Shown: positions 43,730 to 51,715 of the stretch, piece after piece
Layout: every line of letters begins with the position of its first letter
Position numbering within the stretch: the stretch's first letter is position 1
Source of the DNA: an uncultured Prevotellaceae bacterium
GTDB taxonomy: Bacteria; Bacteroidota; Bacteroidia; Bacteroidales; Bacteroidaceae
Reading direction: 5' to 3'
Assembly: GCA_900316315.1 (NCBI GenBank)
Contig: ONCK01000004.1
Coordinates: 62,001-126,000, forward strand
DNA length: 64,000 nt
Made by a program: the position numbers and the translations under genes
The notes under the pieces: generated by a model
Databases searched by the model: none
Seen by the model: the letters and a program-made list of their open reading frames with translations, nothing else
Told to the model about the DNA's origin: nothing

Positions 43730-44305
43730 ATGGAAATCAAAGATAGAATCAAGCAACTTATGGAGTCGATGAACATGTCGCAAAAAGATTTTGCTCGATT
43801 GCTCAACATGTCATCAGGATCTTTGTCCAATATATTTTTAGGTAGAAATCGTCCGACCAATAATCATACGATGGCTATCCATAAAGCATTCCCTAATGTC
43901 AATATTAATTGGCTGCTTTTTGGTGAAGGTCAGATGTACGACCAGTGTCCTTCTTCTTCGGCTGGAAATGCTCCCTCTCTGTTTGAAGAAGGTGACAATG
44001 TGACGGGAGGTGAAGTAGACGAGATGGCTTCCGGCTTACAGCAGACGCCTACCAATTTGCAACAGGTGGCTTCTGGTTCACAGCAGACGTCATCTAGTTT
44101 TCCGCCAGTTTCTACTAGTTCGCTAGCCGCGGGGACAGGTACGGATCGTCCTCTGCCTTTTACCCTTTCAGCTGCACCGCAGGGCGTACGGACCTCCACA
44201 CCTCGTCCGGCTAAGGCCGAGTATGTTAGGCGCCAAGTAAAGGAGATACGCGTATTTTACGATGATGGGACCTATGAGTCCTTTGTCCCTTCAGAAAAGG
44301 GGTGA
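43730..44305 (+). CDS. XRE-type DNA-binding protein with low-complexity linker
   Basis: 191 residues from MEIKDRIKQLMESMNMSQ; the TTG eight codons earlier is less likely. Residues 1-70 are a Cro/CI helix-turn-helix (SQKDFARLLNMSSGSLSNIF) ending in INWLLFGEGQMYDQ, as in Bacteroidetes XRE proteins. The middle is a Ser/Thr/Gln-rich linker with short repeats (LQQTPTNLQQVASGSQQTSS), and the C-terminus returns to order (RRQVKEIRVFYDDGTYESF). The gene is an island in a 5.7-kb gene-poor stretch. Target unknown. Confidence 0.82.
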   Translation: MEIKDRIKQLMESMNMSQKDFARLLNMSSGSLSNIFLGRNRPTNNHTMAIHKAFPNVNINWLLFGEGQMYDQCPSSSAGNAPSLFEEGDNVTGGEVDEMASGLQQTPTNLQQVASGSQQTSSSFPPVSTSSLAAGTGTDRPLPFTLSAAPQGVRTSTPRPAKAEYVRRQVKEIRVFYDDGTYESFVPSEKG

Positions 44306-45114
44306 TGGTCGCCTGTTATGTAGAGATAGACTAATTCTGAACCCTTATAATTCGAGACGTCGGTGGAATATCGCAGAGATATTTCATCGGTGTTTTTAAA
44401 GTTCTGAAGAGCACACATTTTTATTTCGGAAAGTACCACATTTTCGTCACAGATGTTGACTAGCTCGCAGGGCTATATTCTCCCATGTTTCTTCTAAAGG
44501 TCGTTCCACGGCCAGTAGAATTCGTTCAACGGCCAGTAATTCGTTTCTTGGCTAAAGTCATTCCTTGGCCTCTAATGAGCCTTCCTTGGCCCTGTAAGGT
44601 TGTTGCTTCGTCAGTAAAGGTCATTGCTTGGCTCACAAATGACGTTACCTATATCGCGGGCTCCTGAAATCGGTAGAAATACAGGAAAATTGGTTCCTTC
44701 TCTGTGGCTCATGGACTTGAGCCTACTTATTCTAGGCGCGTAGAATGAGGCTTATCTTAGCACTTGCTTCACATTAGCTATGACTCGCCTATCAAGATGT
44801 ACGGCCCTTTTAAAAGGTAGTTGGACAGAGGTAAAAGCCAATTTTTTGTCGGATAGCAATAAATCTATTACCCAGCTCTAGAGCAGCTATACGCTAACGT
44901 GATCGCTTTTCCGTGGAAGCGTATGCTTTGTGGTAAAGGCTGAATAATCATTTAGGACCAGCTCCCGAAAATGGAATCAGTCCTAATTTCTCAACTACCC
45001 AAAAAGTATTATCGGGCGACAACAAAAAATCTTGCCATAATTCGCTTGAGAAAATGGGCTGTTGGTAAATCTATGACTTTTATCGGCACTATTTCAATAA
45101 ATGTGTCTGAAGAG
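44306..45114. other. Intergenic region with a tandem repeat
   Basis: About 800 bp. It holds the 21-bp array at 44495-44650; apart from that no gene or RNA is recognised. Confidence 0.5.
44495..44650. repeat. Degenerate 21-bp tandem array
   Basis: Seven to eight related units around the core TTCCTTGGCCAGTAAAGGTC. Core starts fall at 44504, 44525, 44545, 44561, 44582, 44603 and 44624, so spacing is 21, 20, 16, 21, 21 and 21 bp. A short frame over it gives seven-residue repeats but has no support as a gene. Confidence 0.7.
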
Positions 45115-45318
45115 TCAGAAAGAGACGCTGTACTGTATGATTTCTTTAGCATACTTTTCCATTCAGACAGCACGCGGAGCCGTCTGGCGTATATTCTACG
45201 AGCCCGACATCTTCCAGCTTCAGAGTTGTAATTCCATCTTCCTTGACGAAGCAGGGTGCGCCGATATCGCCAAATTCCTTAATGTGATTAAATACAAAAT
45301 AGTGCTGCGTGAATGAAT
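45115..45318 (-). pseudogene. Decayed partial duplicate of the glutaredoxin gene
   Basis: The stretch matches the C-terminal half of the intact gene at 45379-45675 and its downstream flank, shifted by about 226-228 bp: both share CCGTCTGGCGTATATTCTAC, CATCTTCCTTGAC and AAGCAGGGT. The N-terminal half with CPYC is missing and the remaining frame carries changes. A tandem duplication followed by decay explains it. Confidence 0.75.
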
Positions 45319-45378
45319 ACAAGATTCTAATAAAGCGTATGGAGGGTCAGAAAGAGGCTCTGGGTCGTGAATGTCCCT

Positions 45379-45675
45379 TTAGCAGCCTTTCCCATCCAGG
45401 CTGCATGCAGGACCGTCTGGCGTATATTCTACGAGCCCCACATCTTCTGGCTTTAGGGTTACGGTTCCATCTTCCTTGACAAAGCAGGGTATGCCAATGT
45501 CGCCAGATTCCTTAGCGTGATTGAATACAGGATTAGTGTCGCGCAAATGAATGAAAGCTGACATGTTACGCACATGCTGGCCGATGTCTATTATCTCAAA
45601 TCGGGGATTCCCCTTCACCTGCTGCTCTATATAGTCACAATAGGGGCAGGTCTTCAGTCCATAGATTTTTATCAT
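45379..45675 (-). CDS. Glutaredoxin-like protein
   Basis: 98 residues from MIKIYGLKTCPYCDYIEQQV. The redox motif CPYC is at residues 10-13, and the thioredoxin-fold cis-proline lies in GDIGIPCFVKEDGTV. It should reduce disulfides or mixed disulfides in the cytosol. The C-terminus ends GPACSLDGKGC, with two extra cysteines. A TATCTTTG element lies 22 bp upstream. A decayed copy of its 3' half lies just downstream. Confidence 0.85.
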   Translation of the reverse strand: MIKIYGLKTCPYCDYIEQQVKGNPRFEIIDIGQHVRNMSAFIHLRDTNPVFNHAKESGDIGIPCFVKEDGTVTLKPEDVGLVEYTPDGPACSLDGKGC

Positions 45676-45696
45676 TTTAATTGAGTAATGCGGTTG

Positions 45697-45704
45697 CAAA
45701 GATA
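45697..45704 (-). promoter_or_regulatory. -7 element of the glutaredoxin gene
   Basis: TATCTTTG on the minus strand, 22 bp upstream of the ATG at 45675. Confidence 0.6.
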
Positions 45705-46086
45705 CACAAGTGTTGGCAGAATTGCAAGATTTGTCGATTCATCTGAGCCCCATGACTCTTCGCCTCTCCTGTCTGCTCAGTGTGTCATGTCATGCTTTGC
45801 GATGTATAGGCGCTGAAATCCTGCGATGGTTGCTGAGACTTCTTATATTACCCCATGGTAAAATTGTGCGAATAATGGCGTTGTGAGGCGAATGTGAAAA
45901 GATGTGCTCTCGCGGATGTGCGTTCTGCCTAAGCCAAAGGAAGATTTCCTTTTAGGCCGACTGCGAATACATGTGTCTTTTTAAGTAAAATATAGGACGA
46001 TTCTCGTATGCGAAAGTAAATTCTATTTTGAAAGCATAAGGAGATGGCCTGATTTACTCCGAAGTCGCGGATTTTAGATGAAAACA
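45705..46086. other. Intergenic region, nothing recognised
   Basis: About 380 bp between the divergent glutaredoxin and metY promoters. No gene, RNA or repeat recognised. Confidence 0.4.
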
Positions 46087-46118
46087 TTTGTGTAACATGG
46101 AAAACAACACTAATTTTG
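46087..46118 (+). promoter_or_regulatory. Consensus promoter of metY
   Basis: TTTG at 46087-46090, 20 bp spacing, TAATTTTG at 46111-46118: a full match to the Bacteroidetes -33/-7 consensus. The predicted leader is about 125 nt, long for this window. Confidence 0.7.
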
Positions 46119-46247
46119 CATCAATGCTTCTGTGTGCTGGCGGCAGAAAAGTGCGTGCACATGTTCCTGCTTAAGGGGTAGTGGTGTGCATGAAGCAAAC
46201 AGAATTTTGCATGATGAAAATTTAGAAAAAAGTAATATCGGAATCAA

Positions 46248-47534
46248 ATGATGGAAAAGAAAAAAGGCCTTGGTACCATCTGCGTACAGGAGGGATGGAG
46301 GCCCAAGAACGGACAACCCAGAGTACTGCCTATTGTAGAGAGTACAACTTTTAAGTACGACAACTCGGAGGAGATGGCAGATCTCTTTGATCTCAAAAAA
46401 GACGGTTACTTCTATACCCGATTGCAAAATCCGACCAATGACGCCGTGGCGCGTAAGATTGCCGCACTCGAGGGCGGTGTCGGGGCCGTACTTACGTCAA
46501 GTGGACAGGCTGCGACCTTCTATGCGGTGTTTAATATCTGTGAAGCAGGAGACCATATTGTGGCCTCCAACGAGATTTACGGAGGAACGTACAATCTCTT
46601 CAACGTCACTTTGCGTAAGCTCGGCATCGACTGCACCTTTGTGTCGCCCAAATCCTCTGAACAGGAGATTGGTGCGGCCTTTAAGCCGAATACCAAGGTC
46701 CTCTTCGGCGAGACCATCTCCAATCCCTCTTGTGATGTGCTCGACATTGAGAAGTTTGCTCGCATCGCTCATGGTCATGGCGTGCCGCTCATCGTAGACA
46801 ATACCTTTGCGACGCCTATCAACTGTCGCCCCTTTGAGTGGGGGGCCGATATTGTCACTCACTCTACGACGAAGTATATGGACGGCCATGCTTCGCAAGT
46901 GGGTGGTGCCGTGGTCGATAGTGGTCACTTCGACTGGGAGGCTCATGCAGACAAATATCCAGGCCTGACCCAGCCGGATGAGTCGTATCATGGGATAACG
47001 TACAGCCGGCAGTTCGGTAAGATGGCCTATTGCACTAAGATTGTCTCTCAGTTGATGCGCGACCTTGGCTCCATACCTTCTCCCTTCAATTCCTTCCTGC
47101 TCAATCTCGGCCTGGAGAGTCTGCATCTCCGCATGGCTCGCCATTGCAGCAATGCTCAAGAGGTGGCTGAATACTTGCGGGAACATCCCAAGGTGGCTTG
47201 GGTCCATTATCCCGGACTGAGAGGTGATGCCAACTATGATTTAGCCCAGAAGTATTTGCCCAACGGCTCGTGTGGGGTCATGGCACTAGGCCTGAAGGGA
47301 GACAAAGACACGGCGATCAGGTTTATGGATTCACTTAAGATGATCAATATCGTCACCCATGTGGCCGATGCCCGCACCTGTGTGCTCCATCCTGCCAGTC
47401 ACACGCATCGTCAGCTCACCGATGAGCAGCTTAAGCAGGCCGGCATCGCTCCTGACCTTATCCGGCTCTCTGTAGGCATTGAGGATGTTGAGGACATCAT
47501 CTCTGATCTCCGTCAAGCCCTTGCTCAGGAGTAG
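46248..47534 (+). CDS. metY: O-acetylhomoserine sulfhydrylase (Cys/Met-metabolism PLP enzyme)
   Basis: 428 residues. The Cys/Met-metabolism fold is shown by YTRLQNPTNDAVARKIAALEGG, LTSSGQAATFY, IVDNTFATP and the PLP lysine in VTHSTTKYMDGH. The ASNEIYGGTYNLF stretch and overall length fit O-acetylhomoserine aminocarboxypropyltransferase, which makes homocysteine from O-acetylhomoserine and sulfide. Two ATG codons are in tandem at the start. Homocysteine is the substrate of the methionine synthase whose reactivation domain is encoded at 21.3 kb. Confidence 0.92.
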   Translation: MMEKKKGLGTICVQEGWRPKNGQPRVLPIVESTTFKYDNSEEMADLFDLKKDGYFYTRLQNPTNDAVARKIAALEGGVGAVLTSSGQAATFYAVFNICEAGDHIVASNEIYGGTYNLFNVTLRKLGIDCTFVSPKSSEQEIGAAFKPNTKVLFGETISNPSCDVLDIEKFARIAHGHGVPLIVDNTFATPINCRPFEWGADIVTHSTTKYMDGHASQVGGAVVDSGHFDWEAHADKYPGLTQPDESYHGITYSRQFGKMAYCTKIVSQLMRDLGSIPSPFNSFLLNLGLESLHLRMARHCSNAQEVAEYLREHPKVAWVHYPGLRGDANYDLAQKYLPNGSCGVMALGLKGDKDTAIRFMDSLKMINIVTHVADARTCVLHPASHTHRQLTDEQLKQAGIAPDLIRLSVGIEDVEDIISDLRQALAQE

Positions 47535-47553
47535 CTGATCAAGGGGAACTGAT

Positions 47554-47595
47554 TTTCGCCGCCCATTCCCATATGAGAGGGAATGGGCGGCGAAA
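47554..47595 (+). terminator. Very strong hairpin after metY
   Basis: 17-bp perfect stem (TTTCGCCGCCCATTCCC and its complement) with an 8-nt loop, 20 bp past the metY stop. No T run follows on the plus strand. Confidence 0.65.
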
Positions 47596-48122
47596 CGTAT
47601 ATGGGACGCCGCGTGGGGCTCCGTAAGCAGGCTTGTAGTCCGTCAAGAGAAGCCGTCCAGCTGTCGTAGGTGCTTCTTGCGAAAGACTTCATATCGATGG
47701 ATCCGTCTGATGGCCAGTCCTCTTCCCACGCCAGTCCTCATTCTGAACTTATTTCTCCCTGTGGCAAGGATATTAGAGATCTGTGAGCTGGCGTCGGGAA
47801 ACGGGCGCTCCTCAGTAAGACGAAGTCCCGATCCTGTACGAGGAACTAGCATGCCGGCGTCGGCATTGGGGGTAAACATGATTGAGACGGTGGTGAAAAT
47901 ATTTGATTTTATTGTATCTGTGTAGGTGGAAATCAGGTATTTTTGCTTAAATTTGCGGAATAGATAGGAGAGGTCGGTTGCGCCTAGCAGGTCTGTGTCG
48001 GAGCTGCGTCTGATAAGATATGCCAGCGCATAGGACAGCGTATGTGAGTTGGTGGATACGGTCCACGCTGGCAACTGCAAGGGACGGATCTCCGTGTATA
48101 TGTTTATTCGAAATCTATTTGT
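47596..48122. other. Intergenic region upstream of the phosphatase genes
   Basis: About 530 bp. A TAAATTTG element at 47948-47955 may be the promoter of the first phosphatase. A minus-strand frame of 169 codons covers the stretch but has no recognisable domain and is not called. Confidence 0.4.
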
Positions 48123-48872
48123 ATGATGAAAATGAGCAGTTTGTATTGTCATCTCGGCAGTGCCTTGATGCTCGCAGCCGCTAGCTTACCCGTCTGTGCG
48201 GAAGACATTCTCTCCAAAAATCAGATGACTCAGGCCGCCCAGTTCTTGCCGGCGCCACCAGATACATCGGACTTGCGTTTCCAGAGTGATTTGGCTCAAT
48301 ATCATTGGGGCAAATCGATGAGGCAGACCCCGCGGGGCGAGAGAGCGATCAAGGATGCCAATTTTGATATTCGCTTTGTCTTCAAGGGCTTCAGCGGGGC
48401 TGTGGGTACAGAGCTTACCCCTGAGACGACGCCCAAGCTCTGTCGCCTGATGACTAAGTATTGCAAAATAGCCAGTTACGCCGCTCGTCGTGCTAAAAAT
48501 GAGTATGGACGCAAACGCCCCTACGTGCTCTTTGACGAGCCCACCAGTGTACGCAAGGAGGAAGCCTACTATTACCCCACGGGTTCGTATCCCTCAGGTC
48601 ATGCTACGGCAGGATGGGTAATCGGGCTGCTCTTGTCCGAGATATGTCCTGAGCGTCAGGACACCATCATGAGTTATGCTTGGCAGTTCGGTCAGAGCCG
48701 TGTCATCGTAGGCTACCACTTCCAGAGCGATGTTGATGCCGGCCGTTTTGTAGCCAGCAGCTGTGTGGCCCGCTTCCATGCTGATGCCACCTTTTGCAAG
48801 GAGATGGCGGATGCCAAGGCCGAGGTGCGTCACCGGCTCGAGACATGCCAGAAGACGAAGCCAGCTCAATAG
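48123..48872 (+). CDS. Class A non-specific acid phosphatase, copy 1
   Basis: 249 residues with a signal peptide (cleavage near VCAED). The class A signature is complete: KNEYGRKRP (K-x6-RP), YPSGHATAGW, and SRVIVGYHFQSDVDAGR with the nucleophile histidine and final aspartate. It should hydrolyse organic phosphate esters in the periplasm or at the surface (PhoN type, PAP2 superfamily). First of three tandem homologues on the same strand, 110 bp before the second. Confidence 0.92.
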   Translation: MMKMSSLYCHLGSALMLAAASLPVCAEDILSKNQMTQAAQFLPAPPDTSDLRFQSDLAQYHWGKSMRQTPRGERAIKDANFDIRFVFKGFSGAVGTELTPETTPKLCRLMTKYCKIASYAARRAKNEYGRKRPYVLFDEPTSVRKEEAYYYPTGSYPSGHATAGWVIGLLLSEICPERQDTIMSYAWQFGQSRVIVGYHFQSDVDAGRFVASSCVARFHADATFCKEMADAKAEVRHRLETCQKTKPAQ

Positions 48873-48982: not shown

Positions 48983-49699
48983 ATGAATCATACTTCTACC
49001 TTACTTTTTTTGGCTATGGCGCTGTCTATAGGGGGACAGGAAGCAAGGGGAGACTCCTTTCTGACGCGTGATGACATGCCCAATGCCGTCAACTATCTTC
49101 CAGTCTACCCCTATACTGACGATACACGCTACCTTGACGACTGGGTGCAATACAGCTGGGGCAAGACAGTTCGCAACACTACTCGTGGCCAGCAAGCTGT
49201 GGCCGACGCTATCTACTCAGTGTCCAGCATCTCCAAGGGCTTCAACGCTGCCTTTGGCATGACGATTTCAAGTAGCAATACTCCTGAGTTGTACAAGCTG
49301 CTGACCAAGGCGTTGGGGGACTGTTCCAATGGCACTTATGTGGCAAAAAATTACTATATGCGTAAACGTCCATTTGACTATTATGGCGAATCTTCAGCCA
49401 CGCCCAATGATGAAGCCAGTTTGCGCAAAAATGGCTCCTATCCTTCGGGACATACTACTGCGGGATGGACCTTTGCCCTCCTTTTAGCAGAAATCAATCC
49501 TGCCAGACAGGACACAATTCTCTCTCGCGGTTACCAGTATGGTCAAAGCCGAGTCATCGTTGGCGTACATTATCAGAGTGATGTCACTGCCGGCCGCCTT
49601 GTGGCCAGCGCTGTGGTAGCAAGGCTTCATGCCGATGCCGCCTTTATGGAGCAACTCAAGAAAGCTAAGGCAGAGTTTGCAGCCAAATCTGGAATGTAA
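48983..49699 (+). CDS. Class A non-specific acid phosphatase, copy 2
   Basis: 238 residues, signal peptide ending near QEARGDSF. The signature is complete: KNYYMRKRP, YPSGHTTAGW and SRVIVGVHYQSDVTAGR. The mature N-terminus (DSFLTRDDMPNAVNYLP) is much closer to copy 3 than to copy 1, so the second duplication was more recent. Separated from copy 3 by only 34 bp. Confidence 0.92.
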   Translation: MNHTSTLLFLAMALSIGGQEARGDSFLTRDDMPNAVNYLPVYPYTDDTRYLDDWVQYSWGKTVRNTTRGQQAVADAIYSVSSISKGFNAAFGMTISSSNTPELYKLLTKALGDCSNGTYVAKNYYMRKRPFDYYGESSATPNDEASLRKNGSYPSGHTTAGWTFALLLAEINPARQDTILSRGYQYGQSRVIVGVHYQSDVTAGRLVASAVVARLHADAAFMEQLKKAKAEFAAKSGM

Positions 49700-49733: not shown

Positions 49734-50567
49734 ATGAAAAAGATAACCTTTATTCTATTTGCAATCGGCCTTGTGTATTGTTCTGGGGCACAAGCCGACT
49801 CCTTTCTCACGGCTGACGACATGCCCAATGCGGTCAACTATCTGCCGGCTCCACCCGATACTGCCAGCCAGCGGTTTACCAGCGATTGGCTGAGTTTTAC
49901 CATGGTGCGTCAGCTGCGCAGTGGCGAGCGGGGCACCCAGGTGCGCAACGACGGTACTCTGAATGCCGTTTACCTCGGTCGCGTCTTTACTGGGGCGATG
50001 GGAACATCTATTACCCGTCGTACGACCCCCGAACTTTACACCTTGCTTCAGAAGCTCATCACCGACTGTCAGCAGGCTACCCAGTCCATACAATCCAAAT
50101 ACAGACGCAAGCCGCCCTTTGAGCAGTTTAAGGTCAACTCCATGTTTCCCGATCAGCAGAAAGCTTTGTCTGCAAAGGGCTCCTATGCCTCGGACTATGC
50201 CGCTGTCGGCTGGGCAACAGCCCTTATCCTCGCAGAGATCAATGTTGACCGCCAGGATACCATCCTCCACAGAGGCTATGAGTATGGTGAGAGCCGCGTC
50301 ATCGCAGGCGTAAGCTATGAGAGCGATGTCGATGCCGGTCGTGTGATTGGTACGGGTGTTGTGGCTCGTCTCCACGCTGACGACGCCTTTATGGAGCAGC
50401 TTCAGAAGGCCAAAGACGAGTTTGCCACCGTGACGGGGATAACTCCTGTCAGGGCTTATCGTCCCTCTCTGTCAGACGGGACAATCTATGACTTGCAGGG
50501 TCGGCGTGTGAACGAAACTCATCAGGGAGAAATTTACATCAACAATGGTGTCAAGATAAGAAAATAA
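49734..50567 (+). CDS. Class A acid phosphatase homologue with lost active site and T9SS-like tail, copy 3
   Basis: 277 residues from MKKITFILFAIGLVYCS (signal peptide); the longer frame overlaps copy 2 and is not used. It aligns along the whole phosphatase domain, but every catalytic block is changed: RKPP in place of KRP, YASDYAAVGW in place of YPSGH-x-TAGW, and SRVIAGVSYESD with serine where the nucleophile histidine should be. After the domain comes an extra C-terminal segment (YDLQGRRVNETHQGEIYIN, ending VKIRK) of the kind used as a type IX secretion sorting tail. The frame is intact, so it is likely a secreted pseudoenzyme. Confidence 0.87.
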   Translation: MKKITFILFAIGLVYCSGAQADSFLTADDMPNAVNYLPAPPDTASQRFTSDWLSFTMVRQLRSGERGTQVRNDGTLNAVYLGRVFTGAMGTSITRRTTPELYTLLQKLITDCQQATQSIQSKYRRKPPFEQFKVNSMFPDQQKALSAKGSYASDYAAVGWATALILAEINVDRQDTILHRGYEYGESRVIAGVSYESDVDAGRVIGTGVVARLHADDAFMEQLQKAKDEFATVTGITPVRAYRPSLSDGTIYDLQGRRVNETHQGEIYINNGVKIRK

Positions 50568-50581
50568 GCCCAAATATTATA

Positions 50582-51715
50582 ATGTGGGAATATCAACAAC
50601 CAGTACGTATCCTTTTCGGACCAGGCACCCTGAGTCAATTGGGAGATGAAATCAAGTCGATGGGTGGCCGTCGCGGACTCCTTGTGACGTCTCCGGGATT
50701 TGTACGCCGTGGCTTGGCTAAGCAAATTGTCAATCAATCGTCAGGGCTGCTCATAGATATATTCAGTCATGTGTCGCCCAATCCGACGGTAGACGACTGT
50801 GATGCTTGTTGTCAAGTGTTACGGCGTCAGAAGTGTGACTTTGTAGTTGCCGTCGGGGGAGGCAGCGTCATGGACTGTGCCAAGGCGGCTGCCACCCTGA
50901 GTCTCCAGTCTGAGTCCTCGACAGCCTATGTGGGGACGGGTAAGGCTTTGCCGCAGGGTCATCTGCCGCTGATTGCCGTGCCCACCACAGCCGGTACGGG
51001 CAGCGAGATTACCTGTGTGGCTGTGCTGTCTGACCATCGGCGTGGCGTCAAGGCCTCCTTTAGCGGCGACGGGCTCTATCCACGTCTCGCTATCGTAGAT
51101 CCAGAGCTCACTTATACGGTACCGCCTTATCTTACGGCTTGCACGGGATTTGACGTCATCTGCCATGCGACCGAAGCCTATTGGAGCCTGCACCATCAGC
51201 CCGTTTGCGATACTCTGGCAGTGCATGCCATGAAGCTCGCACTTGGCCATTTGCTTGAGGCCTTTGATCGTCCTGATGACCATGAGGCGCGTCAGGCTAT
51301 GGCGGAGGCTTCTGTGACCGCAGGCCTGGCCTTTACTTTGCCTAAGACTTCGGCTCCTCATGCCTGCTCGTATCCTCTGACCAATATGCTTGGCATTCCC
51401 CACGGCGAGGCCTGTATCCTGACCATGCCGCTCTTCATCCGCTACAATGTCGATGGCGGCTGTCGACGTGTGGACGACTTCGCTCGGCAGTGTGGTCTCA
51501 CCGACGGATATGCTTTGGCACAATATATCGAGGTCATGCGGCAGCATACGGGTCTGAGGTCGGACCTCCGAGACTTACATCTCTCAGTGGAGCAGGTTGA
51601 CCAGTTGATTGCCGCCAGCCATCATCCAAATCTGCGCAACAATCCTGTACCCGTTACAGATCGGTTCCTCCACCAGATGTACTATCATCTGGCAAGATTT
51701 GACGCTGCAAGCTAA
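50582..51715 (+). CDS. Iron-containing alcohol dehydrogenase family protein
   Basis: 377 residues. N-terminal nucleotide-binding half with FVVAVGGGSVMDCAK and PTTAGTGSEIT; C-terminal metal-binding half with FDVICHATEAY, PHACSYPLTNMLGIPHGEAC. The ligands expected for group III dehydrogenases (Asp, three His) can be placed. It starts 14 bp after the pseudophosphatase gene and may be co-transcribed with it. Members of this size in Bacteroidetes include phosphonoacetaldehyde reductases, but no phosphonate genes are nearby, so the aldehyde or alcohol substrate is open. Confidence 0.87.
   Translation: MWEYQQPVRILFGPGTLSQLGDEIKSMGGRRGLLVTSPGFVRRGLAKQIVNQSSGLLIDIFSHVSPNPTVDDCDACCQVLRRQKCDFVVAVGGGSVMDCAKAAATLSLQSESSTAYVGTGKALPQGHLPLIAVPTTAGTGSEITCVAVLSDHRRGVKASFSGDGLYPRLAIVDPELTYTVPPYLTACTGFDVICHATEAYWSLHHQPVCDTLAVHAMKLALGHLLEAFDRPDDHEARQAMAEASVTAGLAFTLPKTSAPHACSYPLTNMLGIPHGEACILTMPLFIRYNVDGGCRRVDDFARQCGLTDGYALAQYIEVMRQHTGLRSDLRDLHLSVEQVDQLIAASHHPNLRNNPVPVTDRFLHQMYYHLARFDAAS

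Follow-up and report, generated by a model that had tools for sequence, protein, structure and literature searches.

Organization of the locus

Three adjoining genes of the window (the whole 64,000-nucleotide stretch of DNA analyzed here) encode phosphatase-like proteins that are referred to below as copies 1, 2 and 3 (Table 1). The open reading frame of copy 3 starts with the ATG at 49734, ends with the stop codon at 50565-50567 and encodes 277 amino acids that comprise a signal peptide, probably cut after AQA, a phosphatase domain and a 43-residue tail. The signature used to define a class A catalyst, KX6RP-X12-54-PSGH-X31-54-SRX5HX3D, is complete in copies 1 and 2, as the original prediction had it: in an alignment of the trio, K..RP, PSGH and SR..H..D are found in both, the residues of copy 2 being K122, R129, PSGH at 154-157, SR at 189-190, H196 and D200. 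Copy 3, which is 47% identical to copy 2, has an incomplete signature (Q120, P127, ASDY and S194) and reads Q..PP / ASDY / SR..S..D. Among the 44 alignment columns that are at least 95% conserved in active relatives, it deviates in 6 of the 11 that belong to the signature and in only 2 of the 33 others, and because of this disparity its changes lie beyond chance.

The coordinates, the frame and the alignment thus agree on an intact, secreted phosphatase-like frame with a degraded active site, as predicted, with some corrections. The statement that all parts of the signature are gone holds for K, R, the P, G and H of PSGH and the nucleophile, but not for P128, S153, S187, R188 and D198; since S153, SR and D are kept, the loss of every part is an overstatement. 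Similarly, the first motif is altered, but the change consists of K to Q plus R to P and is not simply a conversion of KRP to RKPP.

Table 1. Coordinates of the three phosphatase-like genes and of the features of copy 3 within the window
Feature	Coordinates	Strand	Description or basis
Copy 1, secreted class A acid phosphatase, full signature	48123..48872	+	Distant paralog; alignment and tree
Copy 2, secreted class A acid phosphatase, full signature, no tail	48983..49699	+	Constant neighbor of copy 3
Copy 3, class A acid phosphatase-like pseudoenzyme	49734..50567	+	277 aa, intact frame
Copy 3 signal peptide, MKKITFILFAIGLVYCSGAQA	49734..49796	+	By eye; hydrophobic helix in model
Copy 3 class A acid phosphatase fold, residues 24-235	49803..50438	+	Family models and predicted structure
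K to Q (Q120), residue 1 of KX6RP	50091..50093	+	Alignment
R to P (P127) in KX6RP	50112..50114	+	Alignment
PSGH to ASDY (residues 152-155)	50187..50198	+	General-acid His gone, phosphate loop now acidic
Nucleophile H to S (S194) in SRX5HX3D	50313..50315	+	Alignment
Short C-terminal tail, GITPVRAYRPSLSDGTIYDLQGRRVNETHQGEIYINNGVKIRK, residues 235-277	50436..50564	+	Junction of T234 and G235 fits the PorU consensus

Fold of copy 3 and comparison with class A enzymes

Against the Pfam PAP2 model, copies 1 and 2 score 55 and 60 bits and copy 3 scores 20 bits, under the cut-off, while the full-length PhoC model NF045654 finds copy 3 with E=1.3e-58 and 198 of 430 bits, under the equivalog cut-off. 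The AlphaFold2 model of copy 3 has a core with pLDDT above 95 and a tail with pLDDT of 49-67, and the model of copy 2 reaches 93.5 overall. Superposition of the copy 3 model on solved class A enzymes (PhoN, the E. blattae phosphatase) gives Z of about 28-30 over about 210 residues, and its best structural matches are all class A enzymes, so that copy 3 is predicted to adopt the class A acid phosphatase fold. With PhoN, PhoC, the E. blattae NSAP 1D2T and M2-32 (9HTZ), it has in common this fold over residues 25-236 (rmsd 2.0-2.4 A), 31-44% sequence identity, a signal peptide and the SR...D of the third motif; unlike them, it is devoid of the K, the R, the P-G-H of PSGH and the nucleophile His and carries a C-terminal sorting tail. 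Class A relatives have a homodimeric core with a separate active site in each subunit (PMC12356135), and because each subunit carries its own site, a mixed dimer with one live site would be plausible.

Distribution, gene neighborhood and phylogeny

Orthologs of copy 3 were searched for in 19 genomes of the genus; the named records behind the relatives are rumen or omasum MAGs of Bacteroidales/Prevotellaceae. Five of the 19 genomes (the source genome, G001, G006, G013 and G014) carry a full ortholog, and a sixth, G010, has only a fragment located at a contig end and adjoining glyA. Copy 2 lies directly upstream of every whole copy 3 frame, with a gap of 14-68 bp. The neighboring genes, named from their translations, are arranged in three relatives in the order XRE regulator, copy 2, copy 3, glyA, PBP. 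The source genome keeps the XRE/glyA frame, into which further genes are inserted, namely copy 1 and those for glutaredoxin, a PLP enzyme of Cys/Met metabolism and an iron-type alcohol dehydrogenase; the extra genes between XRE and glyA (window 44300-48100 and 50582-51715) are missing from that spot in the three relatives, and the spot is prone to insertions. In G006 (locus L039), the pair is flanked by RelA/SpoT-like and metallophosphoesterase-like genes, and the XRE, glyA and PBP neighbors are absent. As the L039 pair sits among quite other genes, copies 2 and 3 have moved, or stayed together, as one unit.

Phylogenetic analysis places the copy 3 sequences in one clade (98%) and the copy 2 sequences in another (82), with an identical species split in the two, and in every species of the genus with the pair copy 2 is tail-less and copy 3 is tailed. 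Copy 1, by comparison, occupies the locus only in the source genome among the genomes of the genus compared. The tandem triplet described originally is therefore real as far as the adjacency of three genes goes, but it is composed of an old pair, copies 2 and 3, and a distant copy 1 restricted to the source genome. Because the pair persists in G006 without its usual neighbors, copy 2 plus copy 3 is the unit, copy 1 is a late or distant addition, and the triplet is accidental to the source genome. A further tailed class A phosphatase in a relative of the same genus (L015/L141, G018:C46:4871-5704) is intact save for one in-frame TAG, which may reflect a MAG error, decay or recoding.

Selection and the pattern of residue loss

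Pairwise codon models yield an omega of about 0.05 for copy 3, with likelihood ratios of 157-228 against omega=1; the comparisons between G001, G013 and G014 give values of 0.05-0.07 and ratios above 200. As dS between the copy 3 species is 3 or more, the omega values are rough, and the source genome-G006 comparison along with some copy 2 pairs was left out because of saturated dS; despite this roughness, neutrality of copy 3 is excluded. For the same species, dN is higher in copy 3 than in copy 2 by a factor of about 1.7 to 2. The frames are intact in five species of the genus plus the fragment; the frameshifts or stop codons that had been named, for sister strains, as evidence against the original prediction are absent from these other species of the genus, and together with the omega of about 0.05 this bears out the view of a pseudoenzyme kept by selection. 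Neutral decay was rejected on the basis of the same codon models.

The residues that were lost differ between lineages. At the positions of the lysine, the arginine, the phosphate loop and the nucleophile, copy 3 has Q, P, ASDY and S in the source genome; K, P, ASAH and H in G006; K, R, VSEY and D in G001; and K, R, VSEH and N in G013 and G014. In the G010 fragment, SR has become SP and the His is kept. The five full sequences have in common only the loss of the P and G of PSGH; D or E occupies the position of the phosphate-loop glycine in four of the five, and Q131 is the sole residue outside the tail that is fixed in copy 3 yet missing from active relatives. Conservation of the altered residues, which had been proposed as the mark of a new function, is not what is seen, the loop and the nucleophile position (S, H, D or N) varying by species, and a conserved new active site was rejected on these grounds. 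What appears to be conserved is the absence of catalysis, with no new motif, because each lineage lost different catalytic residues; the pattern of loss is that of relaxed catalysis plus a retained fold. The proposed role in substrate binding is also disfavored, because an acidic residue replaces the loop glycine in most orthologs and the phosphate-contacting K, R and H were lost piecemeal.

In M2-32, alanine at H174 (the acid), R207, H213 (the nucleophile) or D217 removes >99% of the activity while the fold is kept (PMC12356135). A residue equivalent to one of these has been lost in every whole lineage except G006, whose copy 3 still has K, SR, D and the two His and, judging from these residues, might retain some activity. 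By homology with the alanine mutants of M2-32, copy 3 is probably catalytically inactive. With conserved catalytic residues missing from an intact and selected frame, it is a pseudoenzyme, and a non-catalytic protein maintained by selection is the reading of these data that we hold with high confidence.

The C-terminal tail and type IX secretion

The predicted tail of type IX secretion type is real, comprising residues 235-277 of copy 3, and is lacking in copies 1 and 2. A profile of the tail matches 17 places in the source genome (G000), copy 3 included, of which 12 end exactly at the stop codon and the remainder 2-14 residues from it; about 15 other proteins of this genome end in a tail like that of copy 3. 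The tail of the 17 places follows the pattern YDLQGRRV...GIYIxNGKKVFVK and also ends proteins in most relatives. The standard models TIGR04183 and PF18962 gave no match to six tails at E up to 10, nor to the whole copy 3 protein at E up to 1. Because these family scans found nothing, the tail was judged by its position, its cleavage site and its co-occurrence with SprA. PorU cleaves between T, E, D or N and G, A or S (PMC10202324), and the tail junctions of the six copy 3 sequences (T-G, D-G, T-G, T-G, T-G and N-G) all fit this consensus. The type IX components SprA, PorU and GldN/PorN are found over the cut-off in the source genome. Among 121 genomes, each at least 90% complete, 86 have both the tail and SprA, 2 the tail only, 5 SprA only and 28 neither (p=4e-20, a value inflated by kinship); in genus g9, the sole SprA-positive genome among those listed is the one with tails. 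In three genomes of genus g3 (G172, G133 and G146), SprA is present and the short tail is absent, which suggests that this genus uses another kind of type IX signal.

We take the tail to be a short type IX signal outside the type A model, and copy 3 is very probably exported by this route. It resembles cargo with the type A CTD (TIGR04183, PF18962) in being strictly C-terminal and in the YDLxGRxV...GIYIxNGxK pattern, the PorU-type T-G junction and the co-occurrence with SprA, but it is only about 43 residues long and neither family model matches it. Because the short tail escapes both models, cargo counts made with TIGR04183 and PF18962 will come out too low, and the fact that it is missed by standard models suggests that current type IX cargo lists are incomplete.

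Active and degenerate domains in the wider family

In total, 141 class A domains were read, from the family plus the named genomes. Many single-domain class A phosphatases of other genera are both catalytically intact and tailed, so that tail and inactivation are uncoupled family-wide; the tail as a mark of inactivity was rejected for this reason. Two-domain class A fusions also occur in other genera, and in 13 of 24 one domain has lost an essential K, R, H, R or H; seven of these fusions are also tailed. Both domains are degraded in none of the 24, against about 1.8 expected, a difference not significant alone. The N and C domains of the fusions fall into distinct clades that include neither copy 2 nor copy 3, and parsimony on the tree requires six changes in the state of the nucleophile or of the essential set. 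Because of these six changes and the separate fusion clades, site loss in one member of a pair has occurred independently on several occasions. The tree rejects the fusions as orthologs of the pair of copies 2 and 3, and since their domains fall in separate clades, the argument drawn from them is one of analogy, not of orthology.

The two-domain proteins L133, L143, L145, L147 and others resemble copies 2 and 3 in combining one intact and one degenerate domain, some of them with the same tail, but differ in being one polypeptide with separate N and C clades. A similar combination of active and inactive copies of one fold is known from the tandem domains of receptor PTPs and from MTMR2/MTMR13, active/pseudophosphatase pairs that work jointly, fused or as two chains (PMC10211241). 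These are eukaryotic and of unrelated fold and chemistry, whereas copies 2 and 3 are bacterial, secreted and His-based, and their partnership is a presumptive one.

Copy 3 as a proposed non-catalytic partner of copy 2

The reading favored here, with a probability of about 0.45, is that copy 3 is exported by type IX secretion and serves copy 2 as a non-catalytic partner, probably in a heterodimer. Its inactivity and selection are well supported, and the broader proposition that it acts with copy 2 has, in our estimate, an even chance. Copy 2 is singled out as the partner because it lies directly upstream of every whole copy 3 and shows the same species split, and the pairing is favored because fused active and degenerate domains recur in other genera. 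On the evidence of sequence, copy 3 has lost catalytic residues in a frame that is intact and under purifying selection, is inherited jointly with copy 2 and has a tail linked to type IX secretion; a heterodimer, in which copy 3 is exported or co-exported and anchors copy 2 at the surface or tunes it, may be what these features serve. The two proteins, products of adjacent genes, would pass through Sec and fold in the periplasm, where copy 3, unable to form the phosphohistidine intermediate, would keep the fold and presumably the dimer face of class A homodimers and hence pair with copy 2. Its tail would then lead to the type IX translocon, with PorU cutting between T234 and G235, followed by release or anchoring, and copy 3 would place, stabilize or tune copy 2 at the surface, itself cleaving no phosphate. 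The suggestion of another role for copy 3 is accordingly retained as far as a selected, intact and tailed protein with a likely role alongside its sister is concerned; substrate binding is disfavored, and a new conserved site is not borne out.

Other readings were weighed against this partnership. Copy 3 could be a free-standing type IX surface protein (an adhesin, binder or decoy) on an old scaffold, with its position due to tandem duplication and with no link to copy 2. The sister clades of copies 2 and 3 are what local duplication predicts, the two proteins may have different destinations, since only copy 3 ever carries the tail, and the higher rate at which copy 3 evolves, which would also suit a looser role on its own, speaks against partnership. 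We nevertheless consider such independence rather unlikely, given that the pair is intact in L039 despite a wholly different neighborhood, that the pairing of active and degenerate copies recurs in fused proteins and that Q131, alone fixed outside the tail, offers no obvious new binding surface. It is improbable that copy 3 is a secretion chaperone or an inhibitor that silences periplasmic copy 2 until export, in the manner of a pro-domain on a separate chain: this would draw on the same adjacency and pairing, and inhibitory pro-domains are known in type IX proteases (PMC10202324), but there is no known reason for silencing a periplasmic acid phosphatase, and active tailed phosphatases elsewhere manage without such help.

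That copy 3 is still a catalyst, with a mechanism or substrate shifted to, for example, S153, R188, D198 and the new acidic residues, is given a slim chance. The strong purifying selection over the whole domain, the D or E that four of five orthologs have in place of the loop glycine and the two histidines of G006 would suit it; the altered residues, however, are not conserved, down to S, H, D or N at the nucleophile position, and in M2-32 >99% of the activity is lost when alanine replaces the Arg, the Asp or one of the two His. Scarcely credible is a slowly decaying pseudogene, for which the loss of catalytic residues and a dN above that of copy 2 might be cited: it is strongly contradicted by intact frames in five species at dS of 3 or more with omega of about 0.05, and the concentration of changes in the signature (6 of 11 against 2 of 33 columns) and the retention of the tail and its cleavage site also argue against it.

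Broader significance

Pseudophosphatases are well studied in eukaryotes. Among the open-access papers searched, no description of a pseudophosphatase among the class A bacterial acid phosphatases was found. A multi-species case with repeated losses of one site provides a natural series for asking under what conditions one site of a homodimeric enzyme becomes dispensable. If a tailed dead copy does bring an active one to the surface, type IX secretion exports a chain without a signal of its own, and if copy 3 carries copy 2, lists of type IX cargo would be drawn up differently. A more general proposition, which we regard as doubtful, is that secreted phosphatases of Bacteroidales have repeatedly been built as obligate dimers of an active and an inactive partner, encoded by neighboring genes or as fusions, and that here the dead subunit alone has the type IX address and ferries or anchors its tail-less sister.

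Other architectures in the family

Four of the proteins read (L128 222-2315, L136 230-2299, L148 1344-3446 and L129 1294-3438) are about 690-714 aa long and have, in addition to two class A domains, an extra C-terminal part of about 230 aa. One- and two-domain class A genes lie side by side in other genera (L119 5124-6638 and 1473-2942, L117 1171-3551), and in clusters of this kind many domains that are intact in other respects have NR for SR in the third motif.
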